A stretch of DNA of 64,000 nt from positions 1 through 64,000 of the forward strand of contig JAEINO010000010.1 of the NCBI GenBank assembly GCA_016342345.1, given 5' to 3'. Positions within the stretch are counted from its first letter, which is position 1. Every line of letters begins with the position of its first letter. Of the stretch, positions 6,219 to 45,420 are shown piece after piece. This DNA comes from Pseudodesulfovibrio sp. GTDB lineage: Bacteria > Desulfobacterota > Desulfovibrionia > Desulfovibrionales > Desulfovibrionaceae. The position numbers and the translations under genes are program-made. The notes under the pieces were generated by a model that did not search any database, had not been told where the DNA came from, and was given only the letters and a program-made list of their open reading frames with translations.

Positions 6219-6378
6219 CTAGGGAAGTACTGATTAATTCAATTTTCAGGAAGTGCTGTAGAATTATTCACTGGCAAGGCGCAAGAAAACATAAAGGCCG
6301 ACGCGTACTTCCTGTACGCTAGGATTTGATGTTTTTAAAGCAACGAAGCCAGCGGACAATTATGCAGTGCTTCCCTAG
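6219..6378 (+). repeat. 160-bp terminal-inverted-repeat hairpin element, copy A
   Basis: The element starts CTAGGGAAGTACTG and ends CAGTGCTTCCCTAG, an imperfect terminal inverted repeat that extends inward to about 22 bp. Inside, a second inverted pair (CTGGCAAGGCGCAAG against AAAGCAACGAAGCCAG) flanks a central palindrome, GCGTAC-TTCCT-GTACGC. The whole element can fold into one long hairpin. Close copies lie at 34622, 38707 (inverted) and 40594, and a diverged one at about 45310. This copy sits between the topA stop and a terminator hairpin. Confidence 0.9.
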
Positions 6379-6384
6379 AACAAG

Positions 6385-6414
6385 AAGGGCGCAGTCATCA
6401 GACCGCGCCCTTTT
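6385..6414. terminator. Terminator hairpin between topA and the cytochrome gene
   Basis: Inverted repeat AAGGGCGCaGTC / GACcGCGCCCTT with a 4-base loop, followed on the plus strand by TTCTATTC. It suits the end of topA; the convergent cytochrome gene may also use it. Confidence 0.8.
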
Positions 6415-6436
6415 CTATTCTTTGTCAGATGGATTG

Positions 6437-6988
6437 CTATTGCGCCGCAGCCGCTGCCTTGACCTTGACTATAGGAGCACCAGTGCCGTCAACATTCAGC
6501 TTGATGGCCTGAGCCGCTGCGACCGATTCGGGATCAGACTGGTTGGGATGGCATTTGGCGCAGAAAGTACCCATGTTGCCGCCCTCTTCGGTGGGCAAAA
6601 TCAGATACTTGTAATTGGCATTGGATGGATGCGGGTTGTGACAACTCACGCAGGAGAAAACACCGTCTTTCAACAATTGTCGCGGCACTTTGGTGTAGGT
6701 GGGTGTGACACCAGTCGGATGAGTGGTATGCATGTTGACGGGCAGAATCCCTTCTTCCTCGTTATGGCAGCCGATACACAGGGCATCGATGTCCACGATC
6801 TTTGCGCTCACTCGCGTACGAGCGGGGTTGTCACTGAAAAGCGGTTTCACGCCAACAGCATAATCTCCCTTGGCGTAGTGAGTGCTATGACATTCCATAC
6901 AGTCCATGTCATGGGGCCCGGCAGCAAAGGCGGACGCGGCCATCAATAGAATGCATGCCGTCAGGCACAGCATCAGCAGTCGTTTCAT
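6437..6988 (-). CDS. Periplasmic tetraheme c-type cytochrome
   Basis: The 183-residue precursor has a clear Sec signal peptide (MKRLLMLCLTACILLMAASAFA) and four CxxCH heme-binding motifs: CMECH (30-34), CIGCH (71-75), CVSCH (113-117) and CAKCH (143-147). Extra histidines in HTTH and HNPHP may supply distal ligands. The ending is an Ala/Lys-rich tail. It should be an electron-transfer protein of the periplasm of the doubled-CXXCH/cytochrome c3-like class. It stands alone, with no oxidoreductase gene beside it, so its partners are unknown. The motif spacing differs from classical tetraheme cytochrome c3. Confidence 0.9.
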   Translation of the reverse strand: MKRLLMLCLTACILLMAASAFAAGPHDMDCMECHSTHYAKGDYAVGVKPLFSDNPARTRVSAKIVDIDALCIGCHNEEEGILPVNMHTTHPTGVTPTYTKVPRQLLKDGVFSCVSCHNPHPSNANYKYLILPTEEGGNMGTFCAKCHPNQSDPESVAAAQAIKLNVDGTGAPIVKVKAAAAAQ

Positions 6989-7245
6989 TGCATACTCCCT
7001 CTTGAGTGTGATGTACTTCCCTCAAACAATCCCGTGTGCGATTTGCCCCCGCACCATGGACCTGTTTTTATTCCATTAGAAGCCATTATATTCCCATGCA
7101 TTAAAAGTCAAAGCTATGAAAAAATAATGCCACATGTATCTATCGGACAAATAAATGAAAAGTTTACCCCCCCCCATGAGCACAAAAAAATGTACTGAAC
7201 AGGATTTTCTGGATTGTTGAACGAAAAATCAGTAGTTGGACTTGC

Positions 7246-7938
7246 ATGATGAAAATGAACCCGAAACCAGCGGACGTTGTTGCTGCGTCAAAAAAACTGA
7301 GACGCCCCGTTGAACCGGAACAGGCCGAGCTTCTGGCCGAGTACCTGAACCAGCTTGTCAAATGGAACAAGAAAATGAATCTGGTCGGGCCATCTGACTG
7401 GAAAACCATTTTCGACACACTGGTGGTGGACAGTCTGTTTCTGGCCGACTTCATGACCGGCCTCGACCTCCCGGACAAGCCGCTGTGCCTTGATCTCGGA
7501 GCCGGGGCAGGACTACCGGGCATACCACTCCGAACCCTTTGGCAAAAGGGAGACTATTGGCTGGTGGAAATCCGGGATAAACGGGCCATGTTCATGCGTT
7601 CGGTACTCGGCAAGCTCAACCTGCCCGGAACCAGCGTTTTTCACGGCAAGGCAGAGGACGCCCTGGAACGACTGACCGAATCCGGGTGCGAATCCAGTGC
7701 GGACGTCATTCTCAGCCGGGCATTCATGCCATGGCCCAAACTGCTCGATTTCATCCACCCCATGCTCCGCAATGAAGACTCGCGCTGCGGCGTGGCGATC
7801 ATTCTCGCCAACACGCCGCCTCCCGCAGAATCCGAACTCCCCAAGGGGTGGATTCTGGACAACCCGGCAAGCTATCCGGCAGCGAAAAGGAAACGATTTT
7901 TCTGGTCACTAAGGCCTGTTCCCAATTCAAGAGGATAA
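7246..7938 (+). CDS. rsmG: 16S rRNA 7-methylguanosine-527 methyltransferase
   Basis: The 230-residue protein matches RsmG (GidB). The SAM-binding motif I is LCLDLGAGAGLPGIPL at about residues 84-99, preceded by KWNKKMNLVGPSDW, the family's N-terminal signature. RsmG methylates G527 of 16S rRNA, and its loss gives low-level streptomycin resistance. The start ATG at 7246 has a weak TTGGA upstream; another ATG follows directly. It ends 9 bp before the convergent tex gene. The usual parA-parB neighbours of rsmG are absent here. Confidence 0.92.
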   Translation: MMKMNPKPADVVAASKKLRRPVEPEQAELLAEYLNQLVKWNKKMNLVGPSDWKTIFDTLVVDSLFLADFMTGLDLPDKPLCLDLGAGAGLPGIPLRTLWQKGDYWLVEIRDKRAMFMRSVLGKLNLPGTSVFHGKAEDALERLTESGCESSADVILSRAFMPWPKLLDFIHPMLRNEDSRCGVAIILANTPPPAESELPKGWILDNPASYPAAKRKRFFWSLRPVPNSRG

Positions 7939-7947
7939 TCCTGCCAC

Positions 7948-10110
7948 CTACTGCATGTCGATATTGGGATTCTTCTTCATGCTCAGATTGATGCGGCCCC
8001 GTTTCTCATCAATGCCGATAACCGTCACTTCCACCTCGCGCCCGGCCGCAACCACCTCGGACGGCTCACGAACAAAACGATCGGCAATCTGACTGATGTG
8101 AACCAGTCCATCACGATGAACGCCAAGGTCAACAAACGCGCCGAACTTGGTCACATTGGTAACAATGCCCGGCAGCTTCATGCCAACTTCAAGATCCTTG
8201 ATCTCGTTCACACCCTCGGCAAAGGAAAAAACACTGAACCCGGCACGTGGATCACGGCCCGGCTTGGCAAGCTCGGCCATGATATCCCTGAGAGTGGGCA
8301 ACCCAACCTCCTCCGAAACATACTCCTCCACCCGCACCATTTTCCCGATATCAGGAGCACCAATCAGATCTGCCACCGAGCAGCCCCCGTCCCTGGCCAT
8401 CTGTTTGACCAGACCGTACCGCTCGGGATGCACTGCACTGGCGTCCAGCGGATCTTTGCCTCGCACCCGCAGGAACCCGGCAGCCTGCTCAAAGGCCTTG
8501 GGACCAAGCCGCTTGACCTTGAGAAGCTGCTTGCGCGTGGAAAACGGCCCGTTCTCGTCTCGATGGGCCACTATATTTCCGGCCAGCACCGACCCAAGGC
8601 CGGAAACATACCCAAGCAATTCTGCACTGGCCGTGTTCAAATCCACCCCAACCAGATTGACGCAGCTTTCCACCACATCATCAAGGCCGGATTTGAGTGC
8701 ACCCTGATCAACATCATGCTGATACTGCCCCACGCCGATTGACTTGGGATCGACCTTGACCAATTCGGCCAACGGGTCCATGAGACGCCGCCCGATACTG
8801 ACCGATCCGCGCACTGTCAGATCAAGATCAGGGAATTCCTTGCGAGCCACGTCCGAAGCCGAATAGATGGATGCTCCCGACTCATTGACCAGCATTGCCG
8901 GAATACCGAGATTCACCCCATTCACAAAGGCCTCGGTCTCGCGACCGGCCGTGCCGTTGCCAATGGCAATGGCCTGGACATCGTGTTTCCTGCACAGATT
9001 TCGCAAAGTTTCCGCAGCATCATCCCGTTGTTTCTGCGAACCAACCGGAAAAATCGTGGTGTGGTCCCTGAGTGCTCCCTGAGCATCAAGCACCGTTAGC
9101 TTGGCCCCGGTCCTAAAACCGGGGTCCAGGGCAAGGACCCGCTTCTGCCCAAGAGGGGCAGCCAGCAGCAGTTCACGCAAGTTGGCGGCAAATACCCGTA
9201 TTGCCTCGATGTCGGCACGCTTTTTCACCTCTGCCCGTAATTCGTTTTCGATGGACGGCCCGAGCAGTCGCTTGTAACAATCAGCCAGAGCCACGCCCAC
9301 TTCACGAGAATCAGCCCCGTCTCCACGCAACACCGACCGGTGCATGAGACCCAGAGCATCATCCTCTGGAGGTCGCAGGGAAAGCCTGAGCATGCCTTCG
9401 CGTTCGCCTCGGAACATGGCCAGCGCACGGTGGCCGGGAATCCTGCTCACGGGTTCGTCCCAATCGAACCAGTCTCGATAGGTCTCCCCCTCGTCAACCT
9501 TGCCCTTGACCATGACTGATACGAACCTGCCCCGTTTCGAGAACAGGGTTCGCATGGCGTCCCTCGCCTTGGGATTCTCGCTGACCAGTTCGGCAATAAT
9601 GTCCCGCGCCCCGGCAAGAGCGGTTGCAATATCCGGCACATCCTTGGCCGAATTCACATACTGCTTTGCCTCGGTTGCCGGATTTGCTCCGCGTTGCGCA
9701 AACAGCACGTTTGCCAACGGCTCCAGCCCACGTTCGCGGGCCATGGAGGCACGAGTGCGCCGCTTGGGACGATGGGGTAAATAAATATCTTCAAGCTGTG
9801 CCTTATCTCTGGCGTTCTCGACCGCTTTTTTCAAGTCATCGGTCAGCAGGTCGCGCTCGCTCAGGGAGCCGAGAATAGCCTCGCGTCGCTTGTCCAGCTC
9901 GCCCAATTCGATCAACCGATCACGAATGGCGGCCACAGCCACTTCATCCAGCGAACCGGTGGCCTCCTTGCGGTAGCGGGAAATAAAGGGAACCGTGGCC
10001 CCTTCGTCAAGCAATTTGGCAACAGCGGCCACCTGGTGCGGCTTGTGCGAAAGCTCGCCGGAAATGGCGCGGACATGAGTATCATGTGGTGAAGTTGTAG
10101 AATGTGTCAT
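7948..10110 (-). CDS. tex: Tex-family RNA-binding transcription accessory protein
   Basis: About 720 residues with the Tex architecture: N-terminal helical region (SHKPHQVAAVAKLLDEGATVPFISRYRKEATG), YqgF/RNase H-like domain (LALDPGFRTGAKLTVLD), helix-hairpin-helix repeats (LNTASAELLGYVSGLG...), and a C-terminal S1 RNA-binding domain (LPGIVTNVTKFGAFVDLGVHRDGLVHISQ). Tex proteins bind nucleic acid and affect transcription and stress tolerance; the exact role is unsettled. I use the ATG giving MTHSTTS; an in-frame ATG lies two codons upstream. It is transcribed divergently from nfeD. Confidence 0.95.
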   Translation of the reverse strand: MTHSTTSPHDTHVRAISGELSHKPHQVAAVAKLLDEGATVPFISRYRKEATGSLDEVAVAAIRDRLIELGELDKRREAILGSLSERDLLTDDLKKAVENARDKAQLEDIYLPHRPKRRTRASMARERGLEPLANVLFAQRGANPATEAKQYVNSAKDVPDIATALAGARDIIAELVSENPKARDAMRTLFSKRGRFVSVMVKGKVDEGETYRDWFDWDEPVSRIPGHRALAMFRGEREGMLRLSLRPPEDDALGLMHRSVLRGDGADSREVGVALADCYKRLLGPSIENELRAEVKKRADIEAIRVFAANLRELLLAAPLGQKRVLALDPGFRTGAKLTVLDAQGALRDHTTIFPVGSQKQRDDAAETLRNLCRKHDVQAIAIGNGTAGRETEAFVNGVNLGIPAMLVNESGASIYSASDVARKEFPDLDLTVRGSVSIGRRLMDPLAELVKVDPKSIGVGQYQHDVDQGALKSGLDDVVESCVNLVGVDLNTASAELLGYVSGLGSVLAGNIVAHRDENGPFSTRKQLLKVKRLGPKAFEQAAGFLRVRGKDPLDASAVHPERYGLVKQMARDGGCSVADLIGAPDIGKMVRVEEYVSEEVGLPTLRDIMAELAKPGRDPRAGFSVFSFAEGVNEIKDLEVGMKLPGIVTNVTKFGAFVDLGVHRDGLVHISQIADRFVREPSEVVAAGREVEVTVIGIDEKRGRINLSMKKNPNIDMQ

Positions 10111-10240
10111 ATACACGCATTTGAAACCGTCCCGCCTCTGGAGTCAAGGAATGAGAAGCACCGGAATCCTTTCCTGTCACGCTTTACATCGACAAAACAG
10201 CCCGGCATATGTATCTACTGGCATCAAAGCAGGAGGACTC

Positions 10241-10705
10241 ATGGATTATTTCGCCTCAATGGAAAACATACTCTGGCTCATCTGGCTTGCCGTAGGCGTT
10301 GCCTTTCTCATCGCCGAGATAATGGTTCCCGGATTCATCATGATTTTCTTCGGTATCGGCGCACTCATTGCCGGGGCCACGGCCTTTTTCGGCAGTTCGC
10401 TCCAGCTACAAATCGTGACCTTCGGCGTGTCGTCTCTGGCGCTTATCCTTCTGCTCAGAAGGATGATGGCCTCAACGTTCAGAGGTTCATCGACCACAGA
10501 CACCCCCAGTGAGGAAGACAGTGCCATCGGCGCGCTGGCCGAGGTAGTCGAAGCCATCACTCCGCCGCACCGGGGCAGAATAAAATTCCAGGGAACCTTC
10601 TGGACCGCCGAAGCATCGCAAGAAATCAAAACCGGAATCACTGTTCGCATCATTTCCAGACATGAAAAAGATCACAACACCTTCACAGTTGAAAAGGAGA
10701 GTTAA
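10241..10705 (+). CDS. nfeD: NfeD-family membrane protein
   Basis: The start at 10241 is fixed by an AGGAGG site at 10231-10236. The 154-residue protein has a hydrophobic half with about three membrane helices (LWLIWLAVGVAFLIAEIMVPGFIMIFFGIGALIAGATAFF) and a soluble C-terminal OB-fold-like domain (GRIKFQGTFWTAEASQEIKTGITVRIISR). It matches short NfeD proteins (NfeD1b/YbbK type), which work with SPFH proteins in membrane microdomains. The SPFH gene begins at the base after its stop, so the two are certainly co-transcribed. Confidence 0.9.
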   Translation: MDYFASMENILWLIWLAVGVAFLIAEIMVPGFIMIFFGIGALIAGATAFFGSSLQLQIVTFGVSSLALILLLRRMMASTFRGSSTTDTPSEEDSAIGALAEVVEAITPPHRGRIKFQGTFWTAEASQEIKTGITVRIISRHEKDHNTFTVEKES

Positions 10706-11722: not shown

Positions 11723-11747
11723 ATCTCACCATAAGCTTCACTAAGAG

Positions 11748-11781
11748 AAGCCCCCATTCTGCATACGCAGGATGGGGGCTT
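11748..11781 (+). terminator. Terminator hairpin after the nfeD-SPFH operon
   Basis: Inverted repeat AAGCCCCCAT.CTG / CAG.ATGGGGGCTT with a loop of about 7 bases. The following bases are not U-rich on the plus strand, so efficiency is uncertain. Confidence 0.7.
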
Positions 11782-13878: not shown

Positions 13879-13917
13879 TTTCACCTCTTAAATATACTTT
13901 TTCATCATCCTGTGTCA

Positions 13918-15563: not shown

Positions 15564-17099
15564 ATGGCCACTTACAGCGAGAAGCTAACTGCCTCTTTAA
15601 AAAAGCTAAGACAACTTCAAAGGGGCGGGAAAAAAGTACTCCAATCAAACGATCTTTCTAGGGTTCATCGCGACCGATTGAAAGGTGCAGGATACCTTGA
15701 AAAAATCATCCCCAAATGGCTCATGTCAAAATCACCTGAGGTGGCAAAAGGCGATACCACTCCTTGGTACTCTTGCTGTTGGGAGTTTTGCAAAAGATAT
15801 TGCGACTCTCGGTTTGCTAAATCGTGGCACTTATCGCCTGAACAATCTTTATTGATCCACTCAGGGGATATGAGTATTCCCTATCAAATCATTATCTACG
15901 CCAAGAAAGGGCAGCAAAACTTACTGGAACTTCCTTTTGATGTGAAACTAATCGATCTTGCCTTTCCTAAAACACACAAAATCACTTCAAAAGATATTGA
16001 AGAAGTTAATGGCGTCAACGTACTAAACCTCCCCTTAGCTCTCTCGATTGTTCAACCAGCCTTCTTTCAAAACAAACCCGCAGAGGCTGAAATGATCTTG
16101 GGCACCATAGAAGATGCTTCAAGGATCCTCCCCCCACTTCTGGCAAGAGGGAGAACAACAGCTGCAGGTCGCTTGGCGGGGGCATTTCGCCATATAGGCC
16201 GTGAGAGTATCGCAGATGAAATTTGCGACACAATGAAAGATGCTGGTCACGAAATTATCGAAGATAATCCCTTTACGGGCAAACAGACTATCCGGACCTG
16301 GACTCAAGCCGAAAGCCCCGTCGTTGCGCGCATCAAAACCCTGTGGGGAAAAGCTAGACCTTTTGTGATAAAAGAATGCGCCAATGAGCCATTAGCGGAG
16401 AACGACACCAATGAATATCTCGCCTCTGTGGACGAAGCTTATACTCATGATGCTTATCATTCGCTCTCCATAGAAGGTTATATGGTATCCGACGTTCTCA
16501 TAAATCGCGTCGCTGCAGGAAATTGGAATCCTGAAGACGCCCCCCATGATGAAAATGAGAAGAACGCGATGGCTTGCCGGGGGTATTGGGAGTGCTTCAC
16601 AAAAGTCAAAGACAGCGTAAAAGATGTGCTGGCCGGAGAGCAAGCAGGGGCTGTGGCAAGAAGAGACCATCGTTCCTGGTATAGAGCACTCTTCTCGCCA
16701 CATGTTAAAGCTGGCTTACTGGACGGCGTCGTTTTGGCCGGATACCGAAATCACCCGGTCTTTATCAAAGGCTCAAGACATGTGCCGATTAATGAGGCAT
16801 CCGTCTTGGATGCGATGAATGCTTTGTTCGACTGTTTGAAAAATGAAACTTCTCCTTTCGTTGCAGCCACCCTTGGCCACTGGCTCTTCGGCTACATTCA
16901 CCCATACACTGATGGCAATGGCAGAATGGCACGCTTCCTCATGAACCTAATGCTAGCGTCTGGTGGGTACTCCTGGACAACTATTGAGGTTGGAAAGCGC
17001 GATGACTACATGGCTGCTCTCGACGCAGCAAGTGTTGAAAGCGACATTAAACCATTTGCCCAATTCATTTCACAATGTGTCTTCAAAGATGACAGCTAG
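15564..17099 (+). CDS. Fic-domain AMP-transferase with N-terminal regulatory region
   Basis: This 511-residue protein carries the Fic motif HPYTDGNGRMAR starting at His446, with all catalytic residues present. An inhibitory-helix motif of the (S/T)xxxE(G/N) type, SLSIEG, lies upstream at Ser300-Gly305, so it is a class II, self-inhibited Fic enzyme that would AMPylate proteins when released. Residues 1-130 (DLSRVHRDRLKGAGYLEKIIPKWLM...) resemble the winged-helix region of AbiEi-type type IV antitoxins, hinting at DNA binding; this is a tentative reading. No strong Shine-Dalgarno beyond GGAG at 15554. The gene stands alone behind a 24-bp repeat array. Confidence 0.88.
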   Translation: MATYSEKLTASLKKLRQLQRGGKKVLQSNDLSRVHRDRLKGAGYLEKIIPKWLMSKSPEVAKGDTTPWYSCCWEFCKRYCDSRFAKSWHLSPEQSLLIHSGDMSIPYQIIIYAKKGQQNLLELPFDVKLIDLAFPKTHKITSKDIEEVNGVNVLNLPLALSIVQPAFFQNKPAEAEMILGTIEDASRILPPLLARGRTTAAGRLAGAFRHIGRESIADEICDTMKDAGHEIIEDNPFTGKQTIRTWTQAESPVVARIKTLWGKARPFVIKECANEPLAENDTNEYLASVDEAYTHDAYHSLSIEGYMVSDVLINRVAAGNWNPEDAPHDENEKNAMACRGYWECFTKVKDSVKDVLAGEQAGAVARRDHRSWYRALFSPHVKAGLLDGVVLAGYRNHPVFIKGSRHVPINEASVLDAMNALFDCLKNETSPFVAATLGHWLFGYIHPYTDGNGRMARFLMNLMLASGGYSWTTIEVGKRDDYMAALDAASVESDIKPFAQFISQCVFKDDS

Positions 17100-34621: not shown

Positions 34622-34782
34622 GTTAGCGAAGTACTGATTAATTCAATTTTCAGGAAGTGCTGTAGAATTATTCGCTGGCAAGGCGCAAGAAAACATCAAG
34701 GCCGACGAGTACTTCCTGTACGCTAGGATTTGAGGTTTTTAAAGCAACGAAGCCAGCGGACAATTATGCAGTGCTTCCTTAG
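34622..34782 (+). repeat. 160-bp terminal-inverted-repeat hairpin element, copy B
   Basis: Nearly identical to copy A at 6219 and in the same orientation, starting TTAGCGAAGTACTG and ending GTGCTTCCTTAG. Its last four bases overlap the lysE-like gene: the stop codon TAA of that minus-strand gene is the element's terminal CTAAGG. Confidence 0.9.
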
Positions 34783-35417
34783 ACGGAATCCGTCAAGGCG
34801 AGCTTCACACCCAGCCCGACAAAAAGACTGCCAGCCGCACGCTTGCCCCACAAAGCCCGCTTTCCGCCACCGCCAAACATGGCTGAAATTCTGGAGGCTG
34901 ACCATGCCCACAACAGGTTCACCATTGCCCCATTGACTGTGAAGACAGCCCCGAGAAAGAAAAATGCCAGCGGCTTGTATTGTGCATCTGCGCTCACGAA
35001 ATGGGGCAAAAAGGCAAGAAAGAACAACGCCACTTTCGGATTCAAGGCATTGGTCAAAAAACCCTGTGAAAATATCTTGCGCCTGGAAGTCTGGGACAAC
35101 TTCCTGTCCGGTCCGGCCTGCTTTTCAGCTCCATTACCCAGAAACATGGTTACACCTATCCAGACGAGATAGGCCGCACCAGCCAGCTTGACTATGGTAA
35201 AGGCCATAGCCGAAGTTGCAAGGATGGCTGACAAACCAAGCGCGGCGGCAAAGACATGCACAAAACATCCTGCCCCCACTCCCAAAGCAGCAACAGCCCC
35301 GTCACGCCAACCCTGCGATGCGCTCCGGCTGACGATATAGGCCACATCCTGGCCCGGCATGAGGTTCAGGAGCAATCCCGAAACAATGAATAATGAGAGA
35401 TCCTGTACTCCCAACAT
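34779..35417 (-). CDS. LysE/RhtB-family amino-acid exporter
   Basis: A 212-residue membrane protein with about six helices and the LysE signature at the start: LFIVSGLLLNLMPGQDVAYIVSRSASQGWRDGAVAALGVGAGCFVHVFAAALGLSAIL, then GAAYLVWIGVTMFLG and FSQGFLTNALNPKVALFFLAFLPHFV. It would export amino acids or homoserine lactone-type compounds. It ends exactly at a dispersed repeat that supplies its stop codon, so the native C-terminus may have been altered. Confidence 0.92.
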   Translation of the reverse strand: MLGVQDLSLFIVSGLLLNLMPGQDVAYIVSRSASQGWRDGAVAALGVGAGCFVHVFAAALGLSAILATSAMAFTIVKLAGAAYLVWIGVTMFLGNGAEKQAGPDRKLSQTSRRKIFSQGFLTNALNPKVALFFLAFLPHFVSADAQYKPLAFFFLGAVFTVNGAMVNLLWAWSASRISAMFGGGGKRALWGKRAAGSLFVGLGVKLALTDSV

Positions 35418-35941: not shown

Positions 35942-36001
35942 GGGAGGGGTGACTACACTCGAAGCAAAGCGTTGTCCATGGGCAAATAATGGTAAATCCA
36001 C

Positions 36002-36091
36002 TTGCAAATCGGTGCGCCCGGGCAACAGCCCTGAACTGCGAGACAGACAGTACAGCATGGCCAAAGGCGAACATTCGCACGGCTGTATTTC
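36002..36091 (-). pseudogene. Fragment of comM (Mg-chelatase-like ATPase gene)
   Basis: Ninety bases align without gaps to 37373-37462 inside the intact comM, with 64 identities (about 71%). In translation PCECSPLA is shared, followed by SR.SG and DLQVD(L/V)P. The fragment is in the same orientation as comM, has no start or rest of the gene, and lies between the PACE gene and the DUF2975 pair. Confidence 0.75.
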
Positions 36092-37004: not shown

Positions 37005-37012
37005 TCTTTGGA

Positions 37013-38542
37013 TTACCCCTGGCGGTCCATGGTGCGATAATTAATCGCCTCGGCCAGATGCTCCACCCCGATGGTGTCCACACCTTCAAGGTCTGCGATG
37101 GTACGCGAGATTCTGAGCACCCGTGTATAAGCACGAGCCGACAATCCCAACGACTCCACGGCTTGTTTCAGGAACGCATGTTCAGCCTCGCCGATCGTAC
37201 AATATTGCTCCAAAGCCGACCCTTCTAATTCGGAATTGGTCAGGATGGGCATAGCCGCGTATCGCTCTTCCTGAATCAGACGAGCACGGGCAATTCGCTC
37301 TCGCATGGTGCCAGAATCCACATTGCTTCGAACCTGCTTGAGATCGTCATACGGTACTGCCGGAACATCCACCTGCAAATCGATTCGATCGAGTAGTGGC
37401 CCGGAAATACGGGACCGATACCGCTGCACCGCCAACGGCGAACATTCGCACGGGTGGGTTTCGTCGGTCAGATAACCGCACGGGCACGGATTCATGGCTG
37501 CCACCAGCATGACGTCTGCCGGGTATTTGAGCGTCACCAATGAACGGGAAATGTTGACTTCACCGTCTTCAAGAGGCTGACGCAGAACCTCCAGCACGTT
37601 TTTCTTGAATTCCGGCATCTCATCCAGAAACAAAACACCCCGATGAGCCAACGAAGTCTCGCCGGGCTGGGGATATCTCCCGCCACCTATAAGTCCAACA
37701 TCGGAAATGGTATGATGCGGAGTGCGAAACGGGCGGGTCACCATGAGTGCACGGTCCTTGGGAAGCTGCCCGGCAACCGAATATATCTTGGTGACCTCAA
37801 GGGCCTCCTCAAAGCGCAGCGGCGGCAGCACCGTCGGAATGCGCTTGGCAAGCATGGTCTTGCCCGATCCGGGGGGACCGATAAAAAGCAGATTGTGCGC
37901 TCCGGCAGCGGCAATTTCAATGGCGCGTTTGGCGTGTTCCTGGCCCTTGACCTCGGCAAAATCGTTGAAAAAGGATTGCCGCTCGTTCCAAAGCGTATCG
38001 ATATCCACAGTGGCGGGTTCCACCACCTCCTCACCCAGCAGAAAACGCACCACCTGACCAAGATCGTTGGCCGCAATAACAGAAAGATCTTTGACCACCG
38101 CCCCCTCGCTCCCATTGGCCACCGGAACGACAAGCCCCCTAGCCGAACTCTCGCGAGCAGCCATGGCCAAAGGCAGAACCCCTGGAACCGACTTCAATTC
38201 TCCGGTCAGAGACAGCTCGCCAGCCATGTACCAACCGTCTATTTTCTCCTGATCGATGATTCCCATGGCGCACAAAATGCCCACGGCCAACGGCAAATCA
38301 TAGGCACTTCCCGCCTTGCGCACATCTGCGGGAGCCAGATTCACGGTAATACGGGCAGGCGGCACCTTGAATCCGCAATTCTTGAGAGCCGGAAAAACAC
38401 GTTCCTTCGATTCCTTGACCGCACCCTCGGCCAGACCGACCATGGTAAAACACGGCATACCGGAACGAGAAAAATCAACTTCAAGTTCGACTTTGAATGC
38501 ATCTATGCCCATGAGGGCAGCGCAGGAGACTTTGGCTATCAT
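37013..38542 (-). CDS. comM: ComM/YifB-family Mg-chelatase-like ATPase
   Basis: The 509-residue protein has the Lon-like N-terminal domain (GIDAFKVELEVDFSRSGMPCFTMVGLAEGAVKESKERVFPALKNCGFKVPPARITVNLAPADVRKAG), the AAA+ core with Walker A GPPGSGKTMLAKRIP, Walker B VLFLDEMPEF, a zinc-like CPCGY...HPCECSP cluster and DRIDLQVDVP, and a C-terminal helical lid. ComM is a hexameric helicase that drives branch migration in natural transformation and recombination. In Acinetobacter comM is an integration hotspot, which fits the partial copy found 1 kb away. Confidence 0.95.
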   Translation of the reverse strand: MIAKVSCAALMGIDAFKVELEVDFSRSGMPCFTMVGLAEGAVKESKERVFPALKNCGFKVPPARITVNLAPADVRKAGSAYDLPLAVGILCAMGIIDQEKIDGWYMAGELSLTGELKSVPGVLPLAMAARESSARGLVVPVANGSEGAVVKDLSVIAANDLGQVVRFLLGEEVVEPATVDIDTLWNERQSFFNDFAEVKGQEHAKRAIEIAAAGAHNLLFIGPPGSGKTMLAKRIPTVLPPLRFEEALEVTKIYSVAGQLPKDRALMVTRPFRTPHHTISDVGLIGGGRYPQPGETSLAHRGVLFLDEMPEFKKNVLEVLRQPLEDGEVNISRSLVTLKYPADVMLVAAMNPCPCGYLTDETHPCECSPLAVQRYRSRISGPLLDRIDLQVDVPAVPYDDLKQVRSNVDSGTMRERIARARLIQEERYAAMPILTNSELEGSALEQYCTIGEAEHAFLKQAVESLGLSARAYTRVLRISRTIADLEGVDTIGVEHLAEAINYRTMDRQG

Positions 38543-38706: not shown

Positions 38707-38866
38707 TTAGGGAAGTACTGCATAATTGTCCGCTGGCTTCGTTGCTTTAAAAACCTCAAATCCTAGCGTACAGGAAGTACGCGTCGGCCTTGATGTTTTC
38801 TTGCGCCTTGCCAGCGAATAATTCTACAGCACTTCCTGAAAATTGAATTAATCAGTACTTCCTTAG
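38707..38866 (-). repeat. 160-bp terminal-inverted-repeat hairpin element, copy C (inverted)
   Basis: Reverse complement of copies A, B and D. It begins TTAGGGAAGTACTGCATAATTG and ends AATCAGTACTTCCTTAG. The last four bases contain the TAA stop of the adjacent minus-strand glycosyltransferase gene. Confidence 0.9.
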
Positions 38867-39579
38867 CTGAAGTCACAAGGGAAAAACCTGATGTGCTCAT
38901 TTCCGTCAATCCTTTGCCCACGAACATAGTTATACACGTTTATGTCGTGAACATTTTGCAACCACAAGGGCTGCGTTTCTGCCTGAATTACAGGTGCCAC
39001 ATCATAGATCGCCGGATGATCCACCCAAAAAACCGTATGCGGATTCTCGCGACGTTCCACCAGACTCACAAACGCGTTGGTGACATCCTTGAAATCGTAA
39101 AAACATCCATCATGCAACTGCAACCCATTGGGGAAATTGATGTAAAGCTTATCAGAAGGCTTAAGACCCTCTGCATCCAATGAATCCACAATCTCATGCA
39201 AACAACGGACAAAACCGACCGAGAGTGCGTCGTCATTGTCCAGTCTGGTCGTCACGAACCATTCCGAATCCGGCGCGATCTTTTGCATGTGATCCACAAC
39301 AGTGGGCATTATGGTTTCATAGGCACCGCAATAAACAGGAACAAAATTATGATATCCGGAAAAGGCCCTGATGAGTCCGAGAAAATATGCCGGTGTCTGC
39401 TCGTCAAAAAGAACCAACCAGCTAAAGTCCTGTTCTTGCTGAGCTTGAACAGTGGGAAAGCAATACTTTTGGAACAATTCAAACCGCAGGGAAAGCCACG
39501 TATCCTCAAGGCGTTCCGGGAAATCAATAGGATAAATATTAACGTTGAAACGTGTAATAATAAAATTATGGAAATTCAT
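38863..39579 (-). CDS. Putative rhamnosyltransferase-type glycosyltransferase
   Basis: From the ATG at 39579, with GGAG six bases upstream, the protein has 238 residues. NFHNFIITRFNV at the start, WLSLRFELFQKYCFPTVQAQQEQDFSWLVLFDEQTP, and the acidic motif TRLDNDDALSVGFVRCL match the family annotated as putative rhamnosyl transferase (Pfam PF11316). The DNDD stretch probably binds metal and nucleotide sugar. Its stop codon lies in the adjoining 160-bp repeat, so the original C-terminus may be truncated or extended. No other glycan genes are adjacent. Confidence 0.85.
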   Translation of the reverse strand: MNFHNFIITRFNVNIYPIDFPERLEDTWLSLRFELFQKYCFPTVQAQQEQDFSWLVLFDEQTPAYFLGLIRAFSGYHNFVPVYCGAYETIMPTVVDHMQKIAPDSEWFVTTRLDNDDALSVGFVRCLHEIVDSLDAEGLKPSDKLYINFPNGLQLHDGCFYDFKDVTNAFVSLVERRENPHTVFWVDHPAIYDVAPVIQAETQPLWLQNVHDINVYNYVRGQRIDGNEHIRFFPCDFS

Positions 39580-39612
39580 AGTTTTCTCCAATGCATAGAG
39601 TTGGCATCAGGA

Positions 39613-39741: not shown

Positions 39742-40117
39742 TAATACGATTTGACCGGATGAACCCTCTTTAACTGCTCAGTGATCGCCCATATATTTTC
39801 GTAAAAACGGGATGCACGATATGAGGTCCAGGCCGTGCGGCATACTTCTGAAATGCAGGTCAAGGAACTAGGTGTATCCAGACAACAAGTGGTTCGATAA
39901 TAAACCATTATCACGCCTTTGACCGTTCACCAAAGTAAAATCACCTGCAACGCGTAAGGCATGATCGCCATAAACACTGATCAACAACCGCCCGGATGTC
40001 TGGAGCAGTATCCGAACAGCCATAATGCCCCGGACAAAGCGGCATACAGCCTATGGATTCTCCGTCCATTACCTGATAGACCCGAATCACAATCATGAAA
40101 ACATTTTCGGAGGACCC
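39742..40117. other. Intergenic region without recognisable genes
   Basis: About 375 bp between divergent genes. It holds only short ORFs with no family likeness and no repeat. The last 80 bp precede the secreted-protein gene and include its CGGAGG ribosome-binding site. Confidence 0.4.
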
Positions 40118-40597
40118 ATGCGGACCATAATTCTCACATTGATGCTCCTGTTGACCTTCACGGCCCCGGCTTTTGCCCAAGAAGAATCAATTACCGAGGA
40201 AAACCCGGCGACAGACGAAATTGCCGAAGAAGCAGAATACGCCGGACCGGTCGGAAACATCCGGCTCAAGGACGGATCGGCCGTTGAAATCACAGAACTA
40301 GAAAAACTCGGCAAATATTACATCTATATTTCAGGAAAACTCAATGGCCGATCCTCAACAGTCATAAGCCTGACCCGCCTGAAAGATCTCAAACGTTGGG
40401 CTTCCTTCACTTTCAAGGACCCATACAATTTCATCATCACCACTAAAAACGGCAAGGATCTGCGCTTTCTCGACTCCCGCATCTACTTAGGCAGCGACAG
40501 CCACGAAACCTTCTCATTCTACACCACCACAGACGACTACGAAAAAAAACTCATTGAAATCAACAAAGCCGATGTCACTTCCATCAACATCAATTAG
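40118..40597 (+). CDS. Unknown secreted (periplasmic) protein
   Basis: The ATG at 40118 follows CGGAGG by six bases. The 159-residue product has a signal peptide (MRTIILTLMLLLTFTAPAFA) with an AxA cleavage site, an acidic linker (EESITEENPATDEIAEEAEY) and a beta-rich domain (GNIRLKDGSAVEITELEKLGKYYIYISGK ... TFKDPYNFIITTKNGKDLRFLDSRIYLGSDSHETFSF). No cysteine or lipobox. Its stop TAG is the first three bases of a 160-bp repeat. Confidence 0.72.
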   Translation: MRTIILTLMLLLTFTAPAFAQEESITEENPATDEIAEEAEYAGPVGNIRLKDGSAVEITELEKLGKYYIYISGKLNGRSSTVISLTRLKDLKRWASFTFKDPYNFIITTKNGKDLRFLDSRIYLGSDSHETFSFYTTTDDYEKKLIEINKADVTSININ

Positions 40598-40753
40598 GGA
40601 AACTCTGATTAATTCAATCTTCAGGAAGTGCTGTAGAATTATTCGCTGGCAAGGCGCGCAAAAAAGTCAAGACTGACGCGTGCTTCCTGCACGCTAGGGT
40701 TTGATTTTTTTGCAGCAACGAAGCCAGAGGGCAATTATGCAATGCTTCCTTAG
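40594..40753 (+). repeat. 160-bp terminal-inverted-repeat hairpin element, copy D
   Basis: Starts TTAGGGAAACTCTG and ends ATGCTTCCTTAG. More diverged than A-C in the middle (GCGCGCAAAAAAGTCAAGACTG) but with compensating changes in the central palindrome (GCGTGC-TTCCT-GCACGC), so the hairpin is kept. The upstream gene's TAG stop is the element's TTAGGG end. Confidence 0.9.
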
Positions 40754-40778
40754 CACAATCTCAGACCAAGGATATCTC

Positions 40779-41168: not shown

Positions 41169-41183
41169 CCAGCCACAGCCAAC

Positions 41184-41237
41184 AAAAGGCCAGACCCCGA
41201 ACGGTGTTCCCGCGCACACGGGTTTGGCCTTTTTCAC
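41184..41237 (+). terminator. Terminator after the DUF3568 lipoprotein gene
   Basis: AAAAGGCCAGACCC and GGGTTTGGCCTTTTT form a stem of about 12 bp around a 25-base loop; the 3' arm is T-rich. Confidence 0.8.
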
Positions 41238-41317
41238 CACGCTGACACCATCCTTCAAATCATCCTGCCACCCGGCCGCCCCTCAGGGCCACACACGCCA
41301 CAAAAACAACTGGCCTC

Positions 41318-41346
41318 TTGACGTCTAGATGTTTTCTAGATAAAAA
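41318..41346 (+). promoter_or_regulatory. Candidate promoter of the MerR-like gene
   Basis: TTGACG, a 17-bp spacer and TAAAAA. The spacer contains TCTAGA twice, separated by TGTTT, an arrangement that would suit a dimeric regulator. It lies about 200 bp before the start codon. Confidence 0.45.
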
Positions 41347-41543
41347 GATCGGTAAGTTTTGTTCTCTAATTTTCTTTGCATTGCAAGGGTGACGATTGGT
41401 GACGATACAAGTAAGTGCGGGCAGCAGCATTCAACTTGCTTTTGGCCTCATCCCCCGCAAAGCAGCTATCAAGTTCGGCAAAACAACCAGACTTGCCAGA
41501 CCCGGAAACCCTGACACTCTCAAACCAGGAACAGGCATATATC

Positions 41544-42530
41544 ATGGCCGACACATATACACATAAAAATCTTGCCGAACTCTGCGGTGTTTCCGAAACC
41601 ACCATCAAAAGCTACCGTCGCAAATTCCCAGGATTCATCCCGGTCCTCACGCGCGGCAAACCCATCCGCTTCAAAAGCGAGGCCGCAGCCGTCTGTCTCA
41701 GAATTCGCGACTGTTTTGAAAAAGGCATGTCTGTCAACGAAACAGACAAAGTATTAAAGGAAAACTTTAAGGGACAATCAGCAGAATCACCCCGACGCGC
41801 TGCTGCCGCACCCACAGAAAGCAGCACTGTTTCCCCTGAGTATCTGGAAAAATTCTTCAAGACAGCGGGCCAGATGATGCAGGGAATGGCTTCTCTTGCC
41901 ACTGCTCAGGTCAAGGCCGGGCAACGACTTGCACAGGTCGAAACCACTCTTGAAAAACTTGTCGAGATAGAAACCAGAAACAGCGAGGTCTTCAGCCAGC
42001 TGCTGACACATCTCAAGGCCCCATCCGCGAGTATTTCTCCGACTCCATCGCAAGCCGAAGCCGAATTTCCTGCACCTGAAAAAATTCGGGCGCGCAAGAT
42101 CGTCAATGTCCGAAGTCCGGAAGGGGACGTCAAATCCTATTCCATTGAAAAGAACAAGACCGAGGTCGAGGTCGAGAGCAAATATGAACGGCCGTCCGAT
42201 GCCTTCCTCAACACACCCATAGTCATCAGAAACGAACAGAGTGAATTTCTCGGCGTTCCCGGTCGACTCCCCCTGTCCGGCTTCATTGAAATTCTGGTGC
42301 GTGAGGCCGAGGAAGGCGGCGTGACCATGTCTCACTGGAAACACAAGGAAGACGTCTGGGTCTTTTTCATGGAAATCCCTGGCGGCGACTCTCACGAACT
42401 TCATTTTGCTTCCACGACCACACCAAAAGGAAATCTCGTGGTCCTTCTCAATCGTCTCGACGTGAACCAGAAACAGACAACGCCCCAGTTCCTCCAGGAA
42501 TTCTTCCGTCAGGTGAAAGACAAGATATAA
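41544..42530 (+). CDS. MerR-like HTH protein with coiled coil, function unknown
   Basis: The likely start is the ATG at 41544, giving 328 residues. Residues 1-75 form a MerR-like helix-turn-helix: HKNLAELCGVSETTIKSYRRKFPGFIPVLTRGKPIRFKSEAAAVCLRIRDCFEKGMSVNETDKVL. A Ser/Ala/Pro linker leads to a helical stretch (EYLEKFFKTAGQMMQGMASLATAQVKAGQRLAQVETTLEKLVEIETRNSEVF), then a C-terminal beta-rich domain (PIVIRNEQSEFLGVPGRLPLSGFIEILVREA). I do not recognise the C-terminal domain. It lies just ahead of the pab operon but looks separately transcribed. Confidence 0.75.
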   Translation: MADTYTHKNLAELCGVSETTIKSYRRKFPGFIPVLTRGKPIRFKSEAAAVCLRIRDCFEKGMSVNETDKVLKENFKGQSAESPRRAAAAPTESSTVSPEYLEKFFKTAGQMMQGMASLATAQVKAGQRLAQVETTLEKLVEIETRNSEVFSQLLTHLKAPSASISPTPSQAEAEFPAPEKIRARKIVNVRSPEGDVKSYSIEKNKTEVEVESKYERPSDAFLNTPIVIRNEQSEFLGVPGRLPLSGFIEILVREAEEGGVTMSHWKHKEDVWVFFMEIPGGDSHELHFASTTTPKGNLVVLLNRLDVNQKQTTPQFLQEFFRQVKDKI

Positions 42531-42578
42531 CCGGCTCGCACGAGTTCATCTGTTTCACTCTCCGGTGAAAAGGAATTC

Positions 42579-43118
42579 ATGGACATTCTGCTTATCGACA
42601 ACAACGACAGCTTTACGCATAATCTCGAACACCTGCTGGCGATATCCACCAAGAGTGCTTCCATTATAGTGGAATCTCATGCCAATTTGACAACTCTTGC
42701 CTTCTCCCGCTTTGATCTGATTGTCATATCGCCCGGTCCGGGTGCACCAGTTGAATATCCCGGATATGAACGCATTTTCGCATCAGGCAAGCCCGTACTG
42801 GGCATTTGTCTCGGCATGCAGATCATGAATGAATATTGCGGGGGCAGAACCGGTCGCCTTCAGAAATGCATGCACGGCAAAACAGACACAATCGTGTTCA
42901 ACGGAACAGAGCATATTGTGGCCCGATATCATTCCCTGTACGTCACACAACTCGGCAACGGATTGGAAATTCTCGCTGAAAATGCGGACTTTGTGCCCAT
43001 GTGTCTTGGCAACCGCTCAAACCGGTGGCTCGGCTACCAGTTCCACCCGGAATCATTTCTGACCCCTCACGGAGGCGCATTCATTGACCATGCTCTCGAC
43101 TATCTCGATCTCGGCTGA
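42579..43118 (+). CDS. pabA: Aminodeoxychorismate/anthranilate synthase glutaminase subunit
   Basis: A 179-residue class I glutamine amidotransferase: MDILLIDNNDSFTHNLEHLL, VISPGPGAPVEYPGYERIF, nucleophile cysteine in VLGICLGMQIMNEYCGG, and the His-Glu pair in GYQFHPESFLTPHG. It feeds ammonia to the synthase subunit. The following gene overlaps it by 29 nt and an aminotransferase-lyase comes next, so PabA of p-aminobenzoate synthesis is favoured over TrpG. Confidence 0.92.
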   Translation: MDILLIDNNDSFTHNLEHLLAISTKSASIIVESHANLTTLAFSRFDLIVISPGPGAPVEYPGYERIFASGKPVLGICLGMQIMNEYCGGRTGRLQKCMHGKTDTIVFNGTEHIVARYHSLYVTQLGNGLEILAENADFVPMCLGNRSNRWLGYQFHPESFLTPHGGAFIDHALDYLDLG

Positions 43119-44364
43119 TCAAAGCCGTTTCGTCGCATTTGCCGGGTACCTGGCCCGTGAAAAAGGAGCGGATCTGCTGCTTTCCTCATCAGGCTATCCA
43201 GCGAAAACACCCTCTGTAGCCGGGGTCCACCCCATGGCCGAATTGATAATAGAAAAAGACACGACGCCAGACGAAATCAAGAAATTCTGTTTCGGCACCC
43301 CTGCCCTGACCATGGGATTCGTGAGCTACTCCTACGGCATGAAATTACGCGGTGTGGCTTCGAACAAGGCAAGCGATTTTCCCATGGGGCACCTGAAAAA
43401 ATATGAGGCAACAGCGGAATACCACCCGACCACCAATCAGGTTGTTTTCACATCCGAGAACAACCCCCTGATCACGGAATTGACGGAACGACTCGCCGCA
43501 TTATCCGATGCTGCACCGAAAATGAAACTTCACGGCCTGCCTCACGCTCCGCCTGCGGCATCACTCAACCATGCAGAATACAAAGCAGGCGTACGCGAGA
43601 CTCTGGAACGCATCCGGTCCGGCCACACCTACCAGCTCAATCTTTCCACCAGGTTCACCTGGAATTGTCCAAACCTCGACCCTCTTGCCCTCTTTTTCGA
43701 CATGCGAAACAACCACCCCGCACCCTTTTACGCCTGGCTGAATTCCGGGTCCAGCCGGATACTCTCCACCTCGCCCGAACGATTCCTGCGCGTCACGGAC
43801 GGGCATGTCCTGTCCCAACCCATCAAGGGAACCTTGAAATTCGACAAATATACCCCCGAGCTTGCCAGTCTCCTGACCGAATCACTCAAGGAAAGTGCCG
43901 AGCTGTCCATGATCGTGGACCTGATCAGAAACGACATTTCCGCCAATTGCACATACGGTTCGGTCTTCGTGGAAAATCACAAATCCGTGTTCGCAGTGGA
44001 CACTCTTCTCCAAATGTATGCGGATGTTCATGGAGACCTGAAAAAAGATCGGGACTGTCTTGATCTCTTTTTCGATGCATTTCCCGGCGGGTCTGTCACC
44101 GGATGTCCCAAGCAAAACTCCATGTCCATCATCGAGGAATTGGAACCTCACAGCCGGGATGTCTATTGCGGTTCGGTGGTCGTTATCCGCGATACAATGA
44201 ACATGGATTCCTCCATTGCCATCCGCACTGCTGCCTACGATATCAGCACAGGTAGCCTCGACTACTGGGCCGGAAGCGGCATCGTGGTGGACTCCAACCC
44301 CGCAAGCGAGTATCAGGAAACACTTGCCAAGGCGGAAAAATTTCTCACACTGGGGGGGCAATGA
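43090..44364 (+). CDS. pabB: Aminodeoxychorismate synthase component I
   Basis: About 424 residues from the ATG at 43090; a TTG two codons upstream is in frame. The chorismate-binding domain is complete: YKAGVRETLERIRSGHTYQLNLSTRF, FYAWLNSGSSRILSTSPERFLRVTDGHVLSQPIKGTLKFD, SAELSMIVDLIRNDISANCTYGSV and FFDAFPGGSVTGCPKQNSMSIIEELEPHSRDVYCGSVVVI, ending YWAGSGIVVDSNPASEYQETLAKAE. PIKGT carries the lysine typical of PabB. It makes 4-amino-4-deoxychorismate with PabA for folate synthesis. Confidence 0.93.
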   Translation: MLSTISISADQSRFVAFAGYLAREKGADLLLSSSGYPAKTPSVAGVHPMAELIIEKDTTPDEIKKFCFGTPALTMGFVSYSYGMKLRGVASNKASDFPMGHLKKYEATAEYHPTTNQVVFTSENNPLITELTERLAALSDAAPKMKLHGLPHAPPAASLNHAEYKAGVRETLERIRSGHTYQLNLSTRFTWNCPNLDPLALFFDMRNNHPAPFYAWLNSGSSRILSTSPERFLRVTDGHVLSQPIKGTLKFDKYTPELASLLTESLKESAELSMIVDLIRNDISANCTYGSVFVENHKSVFAVDTLLQMYADVHGDLKKDRDCLDLFFDAFPGGSVTGCPKQNSMSIIEELEPHSRDVYCGSVVVIRDTMNMDSSIAIRTAAYDISTGSLDYWAGSGIVVDSNPASEYQETLAKAEKFLTLGGQ

Positions 44365-45125
44365 TCCATTATTTCAAAAACGAATACAACCGTGAAGGAT
44401 TATGTCTGGACCCTGCTGCCCCGGCATTTCGCTACGGTGCGGGGTTTTTTGAAACCATCTACTACAACGGCTCCAGAATCTGCCATCTCGACATGCATCT
44501 TGATCGACTGCTCGGCTCCCTCCGCGCCTATCAGATCGACTACGAAACCATTGATTTCGAACCCATCATCCGACAGATCATCAACCGCAACGGTCTTGAG
44601 GGACAAACCGCCCGCATCAACATATTCTATCCCATCGAATCCGACTCGGCCCACCCCGTTGTCATGGCAACACGACACGAACCCAGACCATACAAGGCAT
44701 ACCGTCTCTGCATCTGCAAGGATCACCACATCTCCTCACTCAACGCCCAGAAGACCACCAGCTACATGTTCTTCCATCTGGCCATGAAAAAGGCCTTGTC
44801 CCGGGGATTCGATGACGCTGCCCTGACCGATTTCGACAATACTCTTCTCGAAACCACCACCGGGGCGATTGTTCTTGAAAAAAACGGCGACTTCTTCCAA
44901 ATGGACTCACCCTACCGACTCCCATCCACAGCCCTGGCCCTGGCCGAAACCGTCCTTGAAATACTCCCGGCAACCATTACCCTCGACTCCCTCCCAACAT
45001 ATCGCCACGCCTACATCCTCAATTCCATCATCGGAATGCGACCCATCGTTGCCATCGGCGAAACCGCCTTTGTACCGGACGAGGAAGCCTGTCGCACCGT
45101 GACCGAACTGGTCATTGAAGAGTAA
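44361..45125 (+). CDS. pabC: Aminodeoxychorismate lyase (class IV aminotransferase)
   Basis: The 254-residue PLP enzyme starts at ATGA overlapping the pabB stop, with a GGGGGG run upstream. Class IV features include FRYGAGFFETIYYNGSRICHLDMHLDRLLGSLRAYQI, a catalytic lysine most likely in FFHLAMKKALSRGFDDAALTD, and LETTTGAIVLEKNGDFF. It releases pyruvate from aminodeoxychorismate to give p-aminobenzoate. It closes the pabA-pabB-pabC operon and is followed by a strong hairpin. Confidence 0.92.
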   Translation: MIHYFKNEYNREGLCLDPAAPAFRYGAGFFETIYYNGSRICHLDMHLDRLLGSLRAYQIDYETIDFEPIIRQIINRNGLEGQTARINIFYPIESDSAHPVVMATRHEPRPYKAYRLCICKDHHISSLNAQKTTSYMFFHLAMKKALSRGFDDAALTDFDNTLLETTTGAIVLEKNGDFFQMDSPYRLPSTALALAETVLEILPATITLDSLPTYRHAYILNSIIGMRPIVAIGETAFVPDEEACRTVTELVIEE

Positions 45126-45137
45126 TGCCCCCGGCGG

Positions 45138-45165
45138 CTCAAGGAACCTTTCGAGAAAGGTTCCT
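45138..45165 (+). terminator. Hairpin after the pab operon
   Basis: CAAGGAACCTTTC-GA-GAAAGGTTCCTTG is a perfect 13-bp stem. The T run (CTTTTTTCC) follows only 20 bases later, so it may be an attenuating hairpin rather than a classical terminator. Confidence 0.65.
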
Positions 45166-45309
45166 TGAGAATCCTCCGAAGCTTTTTTCCTCTACACCGC
45201 CTGCAAGGAATACGTCCCCATTTGAACCGGATGGCGGTGTAGCTCGCTCTTCCGAATCCAAGGAACTTCCGCTTTGACAAATTATTACCAGATACAACGC
45301 GTACTCTTC

Positions 45310-45420
45310 TAAAGAAGGTTCGAGAGCAAGGCGCAAAAAAAAGAACAAGGCCGACGCGCACTCCTGTACGCAAGGGTTTGATCTTTTTGAAGCAACGCCG
45401 CTATCGGACCTTTTTCAACA
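45310..45420 (+). repeat. Diverged relative of the 160-bp hairpin elements, copy E
   Basis: The core from 45326 (GCAAGGCGCAAAAAA) through GGCCGACGCG and CCTGTACGCAAGGGTTTGAT to AAGCAACG at about 45397 matches copies A-D. The ends differ: AAAGAAGGTTC and GGACCTTTTTCA form its own inverted pair. It stops 2 bp before the ftsX stop codon on the opposite strand. Confidence 0.75.

Follow-up and report, generated by a model that had tools for sequence, protein, structure and literature searches.

The window analysed here, a 64,000-nucleotide stretch of Pseudodesulfovibrio sp. DNA (assembly GCA_016342345.1, contig JAEINO010000010.1, positions 1 to 64,000 of the forward strand), carries four copies of a 160-bp palindromic repeat that we call family I. 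Family I is securely a miniature inverted-repeat transposable element (MITE) with the ends and 4-bp target-site duplications (TSDs) of IS5-type insertion sequences (ISs), and its interior holds a structured core of about 99 nt that recurs between unrelated ends. Together, our results make it likely that family I is a non-autonomous IS5-type MITE whose core is a separate folded module captured by different ends. As a mobile element, family I is of an ordinary kind, an IS5-type MITE. What sets it apart is its seating on stop codons, together with a structured interior that has apparently passed between different MITE ends.

Family I is an IS5-type MITE

The ends of family I read GGAA(G/A)YNCTGATTAATT and AATTATGCAGTGCTTCC. 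In the consensus, the left terminal repeat GGAAGTACTGATTAATT is complementary to the right one (GGAAGCACTGCATAATT, reversed) at 14 of 17 letters, and the left arm is repeated at positions 31-47, where 13 of 17 letters match the right arm. Identical 4-bp direct duplications flank 72 of 92 verified copies and 50 of 61 in a smaller set, in which control 4-mers at equal distance were identical in 0-2 of the 61. The 72 identical TSDs comprise 40 CTAG, 16 CTAA, 11 TTAG, 4 TTAA and 1 CAAG; YTAR is the target-duplication motif published for IS5 (PMC10359306). The copies in the window and their cores, the latter scored with the core covariance model, are as follows.

6219..6378, + strand: copy A, 160 bp, family I, subfamily Ia; TSD CTAG at 6219-6222 and 6375-6378; topA stop (6206) on one side, GC-rich hairpin (6386 on) downstream
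6263..6361, + strand: 99-nt structured core of copy A, 97.8 bits
34623..34782, + strand: copy B, 160 bp, subfamily Ia; TSD TTAG on both flanks, the right one containing the stop codon of a LysE-type open reading frame (ORF; 34779-35417, - strand)
34667..34765, + strand: 99-nt core of copy B, 99.0 bits
38707..38866, - strand: copy C, 160 bp, subfamily Ia; TSD CTAA on both flanks (element strand), containing the stop codon of a rhamnosyltransferase-like ORF (38863-39591, - strand)
38724..38822, - strand: 99-nt core of copy C, 106.3 bits
40594..40753, + strand: copy D, 160 bp, subfamily Ib (apex GCGTGC/GCACGC); TSD TTAG on both flanks, the left one containing the stop codon of ORF 40025-40597 (+ strand)
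40638..40736, + strand: 99-nt core of copy D, 96.7 bits
45303..45427, + strand: copy E, family II element with other arms and only the core in common with family I; adjoins the end of an FtsX-like gene (45423-46298, - strand)
45315..45413, + strand: 99-nt core of copy E, 93.0 bits

An earlier note on this DNA had described four close copies of about 160 bp with inverted ends, and a fifth, diverged one. The four stand, copy B running from 34623 to 34782 and all being 160 bp long; B and C are 96-97% identical to A, and D 85-86%. The fifth was misassigned: copy E aligns with the family I consensus only at nucleotides 56-139 (82%), the family I ends are absent and the arms are different, which rules it out as a diverged family I copy. 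We place it in family II, whose right end is ...TTTTTCAACAGCCTA. The inverted termini are real, although the quoted shared end 'TTAG GGAAGTACTG' joins a TSD (TTAG, CTAG, CTAA or TTAA) to the true repeat GGAAGTACTG... No ORF of at least 100 aa lies inside any window copy, in agreement with the description of the elements as lacking a transposase.

The repeats are not confined to the window. Counts in the genome, a 4.15-Mb draft in 149 contigs, are based on sequence searches and on 103 fetched stretches, each about 1-4 kb long. A DNA search that scored 40 of 154 candidates returned 41 matches, all of 154-160 nt except one of 70 nt, and the end pattern with at most two mismatches gave 67. The fetched loci yielded 92 verified full copies of family I, 82 of them exactly 160 bp. 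The core covariance model, which covers families I and II, matched all 150 scored candidates, giving at least 150 cores. The genome-wide spread that the earlier note had foreseen is thus real, and its figure of hundreds per genome is bounded from below by at least 150 cores of all kinds. Family I divides into subfamily Ia (about 59 copies, apex GCGTAC/GTACGC) and subfamily Ib (about 33 copies, apex as in copy D), two sorting rules disagreeing on one copy, with 87.5% identity between the two consensus sequences. Among copies of exactly 160 bp, the mean divergence from their own consensus is 3.4% for Ia (n=57) and 2.5% for Ib (n=25).

Comparison with other genomes of the genus, made at a single locus (the gene at copy C), revealed empty sites. 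This gene matched in 7 of 21 genomes, the window's own among them, and in all six sister genomes the 180 nt past the stop lack the element. Relative to the protein of the window's genome, that of three sister genomes ends within 1-2 residues of the same point (G046, G139 and G148); a fourth (G198) is comparable, and two (G589 and G590) have different C-termini.

The earlier note had left the choice between a MITE and an element of the repetitive extragenic palindromic (REP) type. The terminal repeats, the identical TSDs, an IS5-family parent type found elsewhere, the empty sites at one locus and the number of full copies uphold the MITE half of that description. REP sequences are palindromes of 20-40 nt without target duplication, and an identity with REP elements and their REP-associated tyrosine transposases (RAYT) is rejected on structure, since the elements here are 160 bp long with YTAR-type TSDs.

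Several loci show the elements in other settings. The metagenome-assembled genome (MAG) of Pseudodesulfovibrio sp. MC-06 bears family I ends at two loci (L178 and L210), the first of which also has the same core; there, L178:6240-6421 is a family I element with about 50 extra bases near the apex of the core. The CTAG duplication of one family I copy is occupied at L056:1179-2044 (G000:C59) by an IS5_3-type IS, which has the inverted repeat GTGGTGTAGTCACGAGA, CTAG on both flanks and a transposase in broken frames; this target is therefore shared by a second IS5-type element. At L057:2140-2412 (the end of G000:C59), a family I end lies within CTAG of a family II core, representing nested insertions; the sequence beyond that end resembles an IS1595-type end, and the contig stops there.

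A probable parent type of insertion sequence

A contig scan with YTAR followed by a degenerate left end recovered at least 113 stretches from many lineages, many of which contain MITEs (107-355 bp) that share these ends and have matching YTAR TSDs but differ in their interiors. Five loci (L128, L131, L134, L137 and L140) place palindromic repeats of other bacteria (GTCATTGCGAG..., CCGTTCG...GGGCGAACGG and CGTTCCCGCG...), which we take to be common ones, within YTAR and GGAA..CTGATTAA ends. Judged from this framing, more such palindromic repeats may be IS5-type MITEs.

The transposase domain PF01609 was sought in ten genomes with such ends and matched in nine. One locus of a Nitrosomonas MAG (L241) is a complete IS5-family element of 1191 bp between TTAA repeats. 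Its termini read TTAA + GGAARCTCTGATTAAG and agree with each other in 15 of 16 letters, and its transposase is intact, reaching 305 bits with NF033581 (cut-off 140) and containing DUF772 and DDE_Tnp_1. It alone passed a strict test of ends and TSD among 60 loci; four others (L220, L225, L229 and L236) have similar ends under a looser test. A transposase with matching ends, as sought by the earlier note, was found in another bacterium, with ends similar to those of family I, and no relative of it was found in the genome itself at E<=1e-10.

Relatives of the L241 transposase (E<=1e-10) occur in 21 of the 199 genomes of the window's taxonomic family. PF01609 and L241 queries found no cognate transposase in the genome itself, only remnants of other IS5 and IS4 types: PF01609 matched three times, twice in IS elements whose ends are of another type (GTGTAGTCACGAGA) and once in a broken, IS4-like one. 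The IS5 relatives from elsewhere in the taxonomic family (L250-L279) yielded no end pair with YTAR repeats; some of them have GAGACCTCTGCA-type ends, like those of one core-bearing element (L097). We propose that an IS5-group transposase, which the genome has since lost or the assembly lacks, would have mobilised the copies in trans and placed them in YTAR sites.

About half of the family I copies sit on stop codons

The TSD falls exactly on a stop codon in 44 of the 92 copies; of the rest, 23 follow a stop by at most 150 nt, 23 occupy other intergenic positions and 2 fall in genes. Among 611 control YTAR sites of the same sequence, the numbers are 48, 93, 283 and 187, all with genes called by a codon score trained on the window, which is a crude coding score. 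In the window, copies B, C and D are seated on stops and A is not. The smaller set of 61 copies gave 29 on stops, compared with 15 of 216 window sites, and 32 under another rule, compared with 38 of 508. For CTAG sites alone, on-stop and downstream counts were 25:9 in copies and 17:20 in controls (p 0.03).

YTAR includes TAG or TAA, so an element that lands on a stop codon copies the stop along with its target and the protein stays whole. Such insertion would spare the protein in about half of the verified copies. One possible explanation is that the stop-codon excess reflects survival alone, the other insertions having been lost without any target choice past YTAR, and we lend this a little less than even weight. 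The scarcity of copies inside genes relative to the control sites is in its favour, within the limits of the coding score. However, seats on the stop and just downstream of it should both be tolerated, and the former exceed the latter 3.7-fold relative to the available YTAR sites (44:23 in copies vs 48:93 in controls; odds ratio 3.7, p 2e-5).

Elements of other lineages, in which the excess is weak, also favour survival, and they weigh against stop-codon seating as part of the mobile behaviour of IS5-type MITEs. From the at least 113 stretches, mostly of other lineages, 32 of 44 paired elements had enough flank. On-stop copies were 6/32 vs 312/3628 control sites at 100 codons (p 0.054) and 8/32 vs 660/3628 at 60 codons (p 0.35); at 150 codons they were 6/32 vs 195/3628 (p 0.007). 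Stop-codon seating as a general trait of IS5-type MITEs is therefore weakly supported. In the open-licence literature, supplements apart, we found no account of such seating by IS5-type MITEs.

A structured core between unrelated arms

The core covers positions ~45-143 of family I and recurs in other elements of the taxonomic family, with unrelated arms. These arms include CAG(G/A)CTGTT(G/C)AAAAA, GAGACCTTTGCA and unique sequences (L099 and L105), and in each case both sides stay complementary; the same core is thus found with at least three unrelated arm sets. Unpaired letters within it are conserved (AGGCG...CAACG and CCGA...GAGG). No description of this core was found in the open-licence literature, supplements apart.

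To describe the fold, we aligned 38 of 61 cores, leaving out near-duplicates and tandem repeats; the 61 had been obtained by thinning the family I copies and dropping six places without anchors. The alignment contains 34 pairs, with 95.3% of cells paired. Two-sided changes occur in 27 of the 34 pairs (shuffle mean 11.8) and in 185 cells (shuffle mean 53.3), and none of 500 shuffles reached either value. Structures with slid partners pair 29-43% of cells; the fold was derived from the same alignment, which favours the true structure over slid ones, and the shuffles do not keep relatedness. A further alignment (A4), built from 20 earlier cores, 29 phylum loci and four Nitrosomonas sequences, has 25 pairs, 22 of them with two-sided changes. 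These include the pairs beside conserved mismatches (columns 20-88 and 21-87), and the mismatches themselves, AGG[CA]/[AG]ACG, are kept across lineages.

The earlier note had argued from copy D that the fold matters. Copy D alone cannot carry this point, as its apex is the common state of subfamily Ib and represents one event, and we rejected it as independent evidence of covariation. The claim itself is strengthened by the 38 diverse copies, in which covariation does not vanish, and by an excess of G-U over A-C.

This excess suggests that one strand folds. Pairs with a Watson-Crick majority hold 37 G-U and 11 A-C cells, and three pairs with a G-U majority hold 75 and 0; 19 of the 38 sequences lean to G-U, 5 to A-C and 14 to neither. 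RNAalifold picked the pairs on the top strand, which partly favours G-U over A-C and so counts against these figures. The consensus RNA fold of the top strand reaches -67.7 kcal/mol in Ia (bottom strand -53.7) and -73.8 kcal/mol in Ib (bottom strand -56.5). The G-U excess and the stabler top strand point to selection on one folded strand, either RNA or DNA.

Searching the window with Rfam (4227 models), only a tRNA reached its gathering score. Rfam searches of six loci, to E 1, returned three matches, all under the gathering score; one of them, BcKCsr2 at 24.5 bits (gathering 40), overlaps the left end of an element (L085).

Distribution of the core

The 160-nt consensus matched 49 of the 199 genomes of the taxonomic family, its own included, mostly through the core (at most 4 candidates scored per genome). 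With covariance model R1 (E<=1e-5, at most 10 candidates scored per genome), 60 of 395 genomes of the phylum matched, its own included, in 40 of 246 genera. The phylum loci mostly retain AGGCG, CAACG and the apical GAG-type motif; in three of them (L300, L305 and L308), AGGAA and partners of the GACG type are found instead. Ends of the GGAA..CTGATTAA type occur together with the core outside the genome itself at L081 (76%, CTTG on both flanks), at L178, with its insertion, at L296 (TTAG on both flanks) and in Nitrosomonas (L371 and others).

A second covariance model, R2, was built from alignment A4 and run on 20 genomes picked for IS5-type ends. Eight of them matched (E<=1e-4), two being Nitrosomonas genomes already in the model. 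The others are Methylotenera (57.1 bits), Sinanaerobacter (50.4), Ruminococcus (44.5), Pseudomonas abyssi (42.3), Sedimenticola (36.4) and Thiobacillus (32.7). R1, run on 99 of the at least 113 end-pattern loci, gave 19 matches at E<=1, the best of 34 bits and many in Nitrosomonas MITEs. These R1 matches do not decide the matter, since true copies score just as high on their reverse strands. For the cross-phylum cores, the shared unpaired letters are a better argument than the score. Less securely than in its own phylum, the core appears to be present in some Pseudomonadota and Bacillota.

It is tempting to speculate that the ~99-nt core forms a structured nucleic-acid module found across Bacteria, whose function is its own and does not depend on any single transposon. 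Different MITE ends would then have captured it repeatedly in Desulfobacterota-type bacteria, Pseudomonadota and Bacillota, and a factor of the host or of the transposon would read its folded single strand through the conserved AGGCG/CAACG mismatch motif. We regard this as possible, well short of probable.

Possible roles of the core

We propose that the core forms a module of its own, which is under selection as a single folded top strand and which different MITE ends have captured. Its role would be that of a folded RNA or single-stranded DNA: most likely, it would act either as DNA that is folded during replication or mobilisation, or as a hairpin of the transcript. Folded DNA and RNA receive equal and modest weight from us, the absence of a function somewhat less, and the remainder goes to combinations.

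Several observations speak against a captured, selected module in an IS5-type MITE. The L241 ends resemble those of the window copies without being identical to them, and no relative of its transposase was found in the genome itself (E<=1e-10), so the window copies are orphans here or their parent is missing from the assembly. Palindromes can stay complementary through template-switch repair, with no need for selection. Twelve of the 20 other-lineage genomes gave no R2 match. R1 gives the reverse strands of true copies 22-36 bits, which makes cross-phylum matches below about 40 bits weak on score alone, and two of the six independent R2 genera score below that. The orientation of neighbouring genes varies between families, a poor fit to one simple role in mRNA.

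The core could be an RNA module whose hairpin, when transcribed, caps or processes mRNA 3' ends, which would make insertions after stops harmless or useful to the host. Such a role is a tentative possibility. The number of copies on or shortly downstream of stops and the G-U bias of the folded strand fit it. Among 34 elements of relatives, genes read into the left end only in 16, transcribing the top strand, and into the right end only in 5 (both in 1, neither in 12). The sense is opposite in the genome itself, where 34 on-stop genes read into the right end and 11 into the left (p 8e-4), transcribing the less stable bottom strand; downstream copies there number 14 at the right end and 18 at the left. 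No orientation bias was found in ten family II elements of the genome (2 left, 2 right, 4 both) or in 21 phylum loci (6 left, 5 right, 3 both), and the lack of an Rfam match at gathering score also tells against the RNA role.

A structure of single-stranded DNA, used or avoided in replication or transposition and carried by different transposon ends, is just as tentative. The top strand, much the stabler under RNA parameters, opposes the replication fork in 88 of 134 places in eight relatives of one or two contigs (p 4e-4), a count that takes the best 150 of 290 matches with tandem copies collapsed, assumes dnaA as origin and a terminus opposite, and uses two approximate lengths; one genome (G072) supplies 24 of these, against 7 of the reverse orientation. 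The occurrence of one core in several end types and the mismatches kept across lineages agree with such a structure. The TSDs and ends speak against it, since they are of the kind made by a double-strand DDE transposase.

A core without function, its palindromes kept complementary by template-switch repair and its letters shared by descent and capture, would explain why outer arms can be wholly different yet complementary (L079, L097, L099 and L105), but it is rather unlikely, as such repair would erase the conserved mismatches, which persist beside covarying pairs, and is strand-symmetric, at odds with the G-U excess.

Relation to known repeats

The captured-module reading of family I can be set beside several known systems. 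IS5-group MITEs (NF033581) share with it the GGAA...CTGATTAA ends, the 4-bp YTAR TSD, the non-coding interior and the many similar copies; family I is unlike them in having no parent found in its genome, a structured core shared with elements of other ends, and strong stop-codon seating. REP sequences, the bacterial interspersed mosaic elements (BIMEs) and the associated RAYT system likewise involve intergenic palindromes with conserved mismatches and many copies, and family I differs from REP/BIME in its length and its target duplications. The ends of IS200/IS605 elements and integron attC sites work by one folded DNA strand with conserved extrahelical bases; family I has ends and duplications of the DDE type instead.

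QMITE2 of Coxiella and SPRITE, BOX and RUP of pneumococcus are MITE-like repeats, as is family I, and form stable hairpin transcripts, some of which are proposed to act on mRNA (PMC10969869, PMC5896051, PMC3049150). QMITE2 differs in its duplications of 7-9 bp (PMC10969869). The multicopy palindromic families of Geobacter, a relative within the wider group, are also abundant intergenic palindromes (PMC2700814, PMC2996986).

Bacterial genomes are rich in anonymous palindromic repeats, and one of these is here an IS5-type MITE. With a 4-bp target that holds a stop, a MITE can multiply at gene ends and leave proteins unbroken. If the core is functional, many repeats now regarded as 'junk' may have one testable biochemical partner in common, and covariance models R1 and R2 provide the means to find further members.

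Other observations

Some family II cores are arrayed head to tail, repeating about every 120-160 nt (L034:1325-1684 and L096:1501-1851; contigs C10, C15, C21, C24 and C48). At three loci (L318, L329 and L334, at about 900-1000), family II copies are flanked by two similar terminator-like hairpins, which looks as if a terminator had been duplicated along with the element. A gyrB scan of viral contigs gave a single distant locus. Elsewhere in the window, positions 15564-17099 (+ strand) encode a Fic/DOC-domain protein of 511 aa, and two segments, 35991-36091 (overlapping a BTP-family ORF on the - strand) and 37362-37462 (within a yifB-like gene), are 72% alike.

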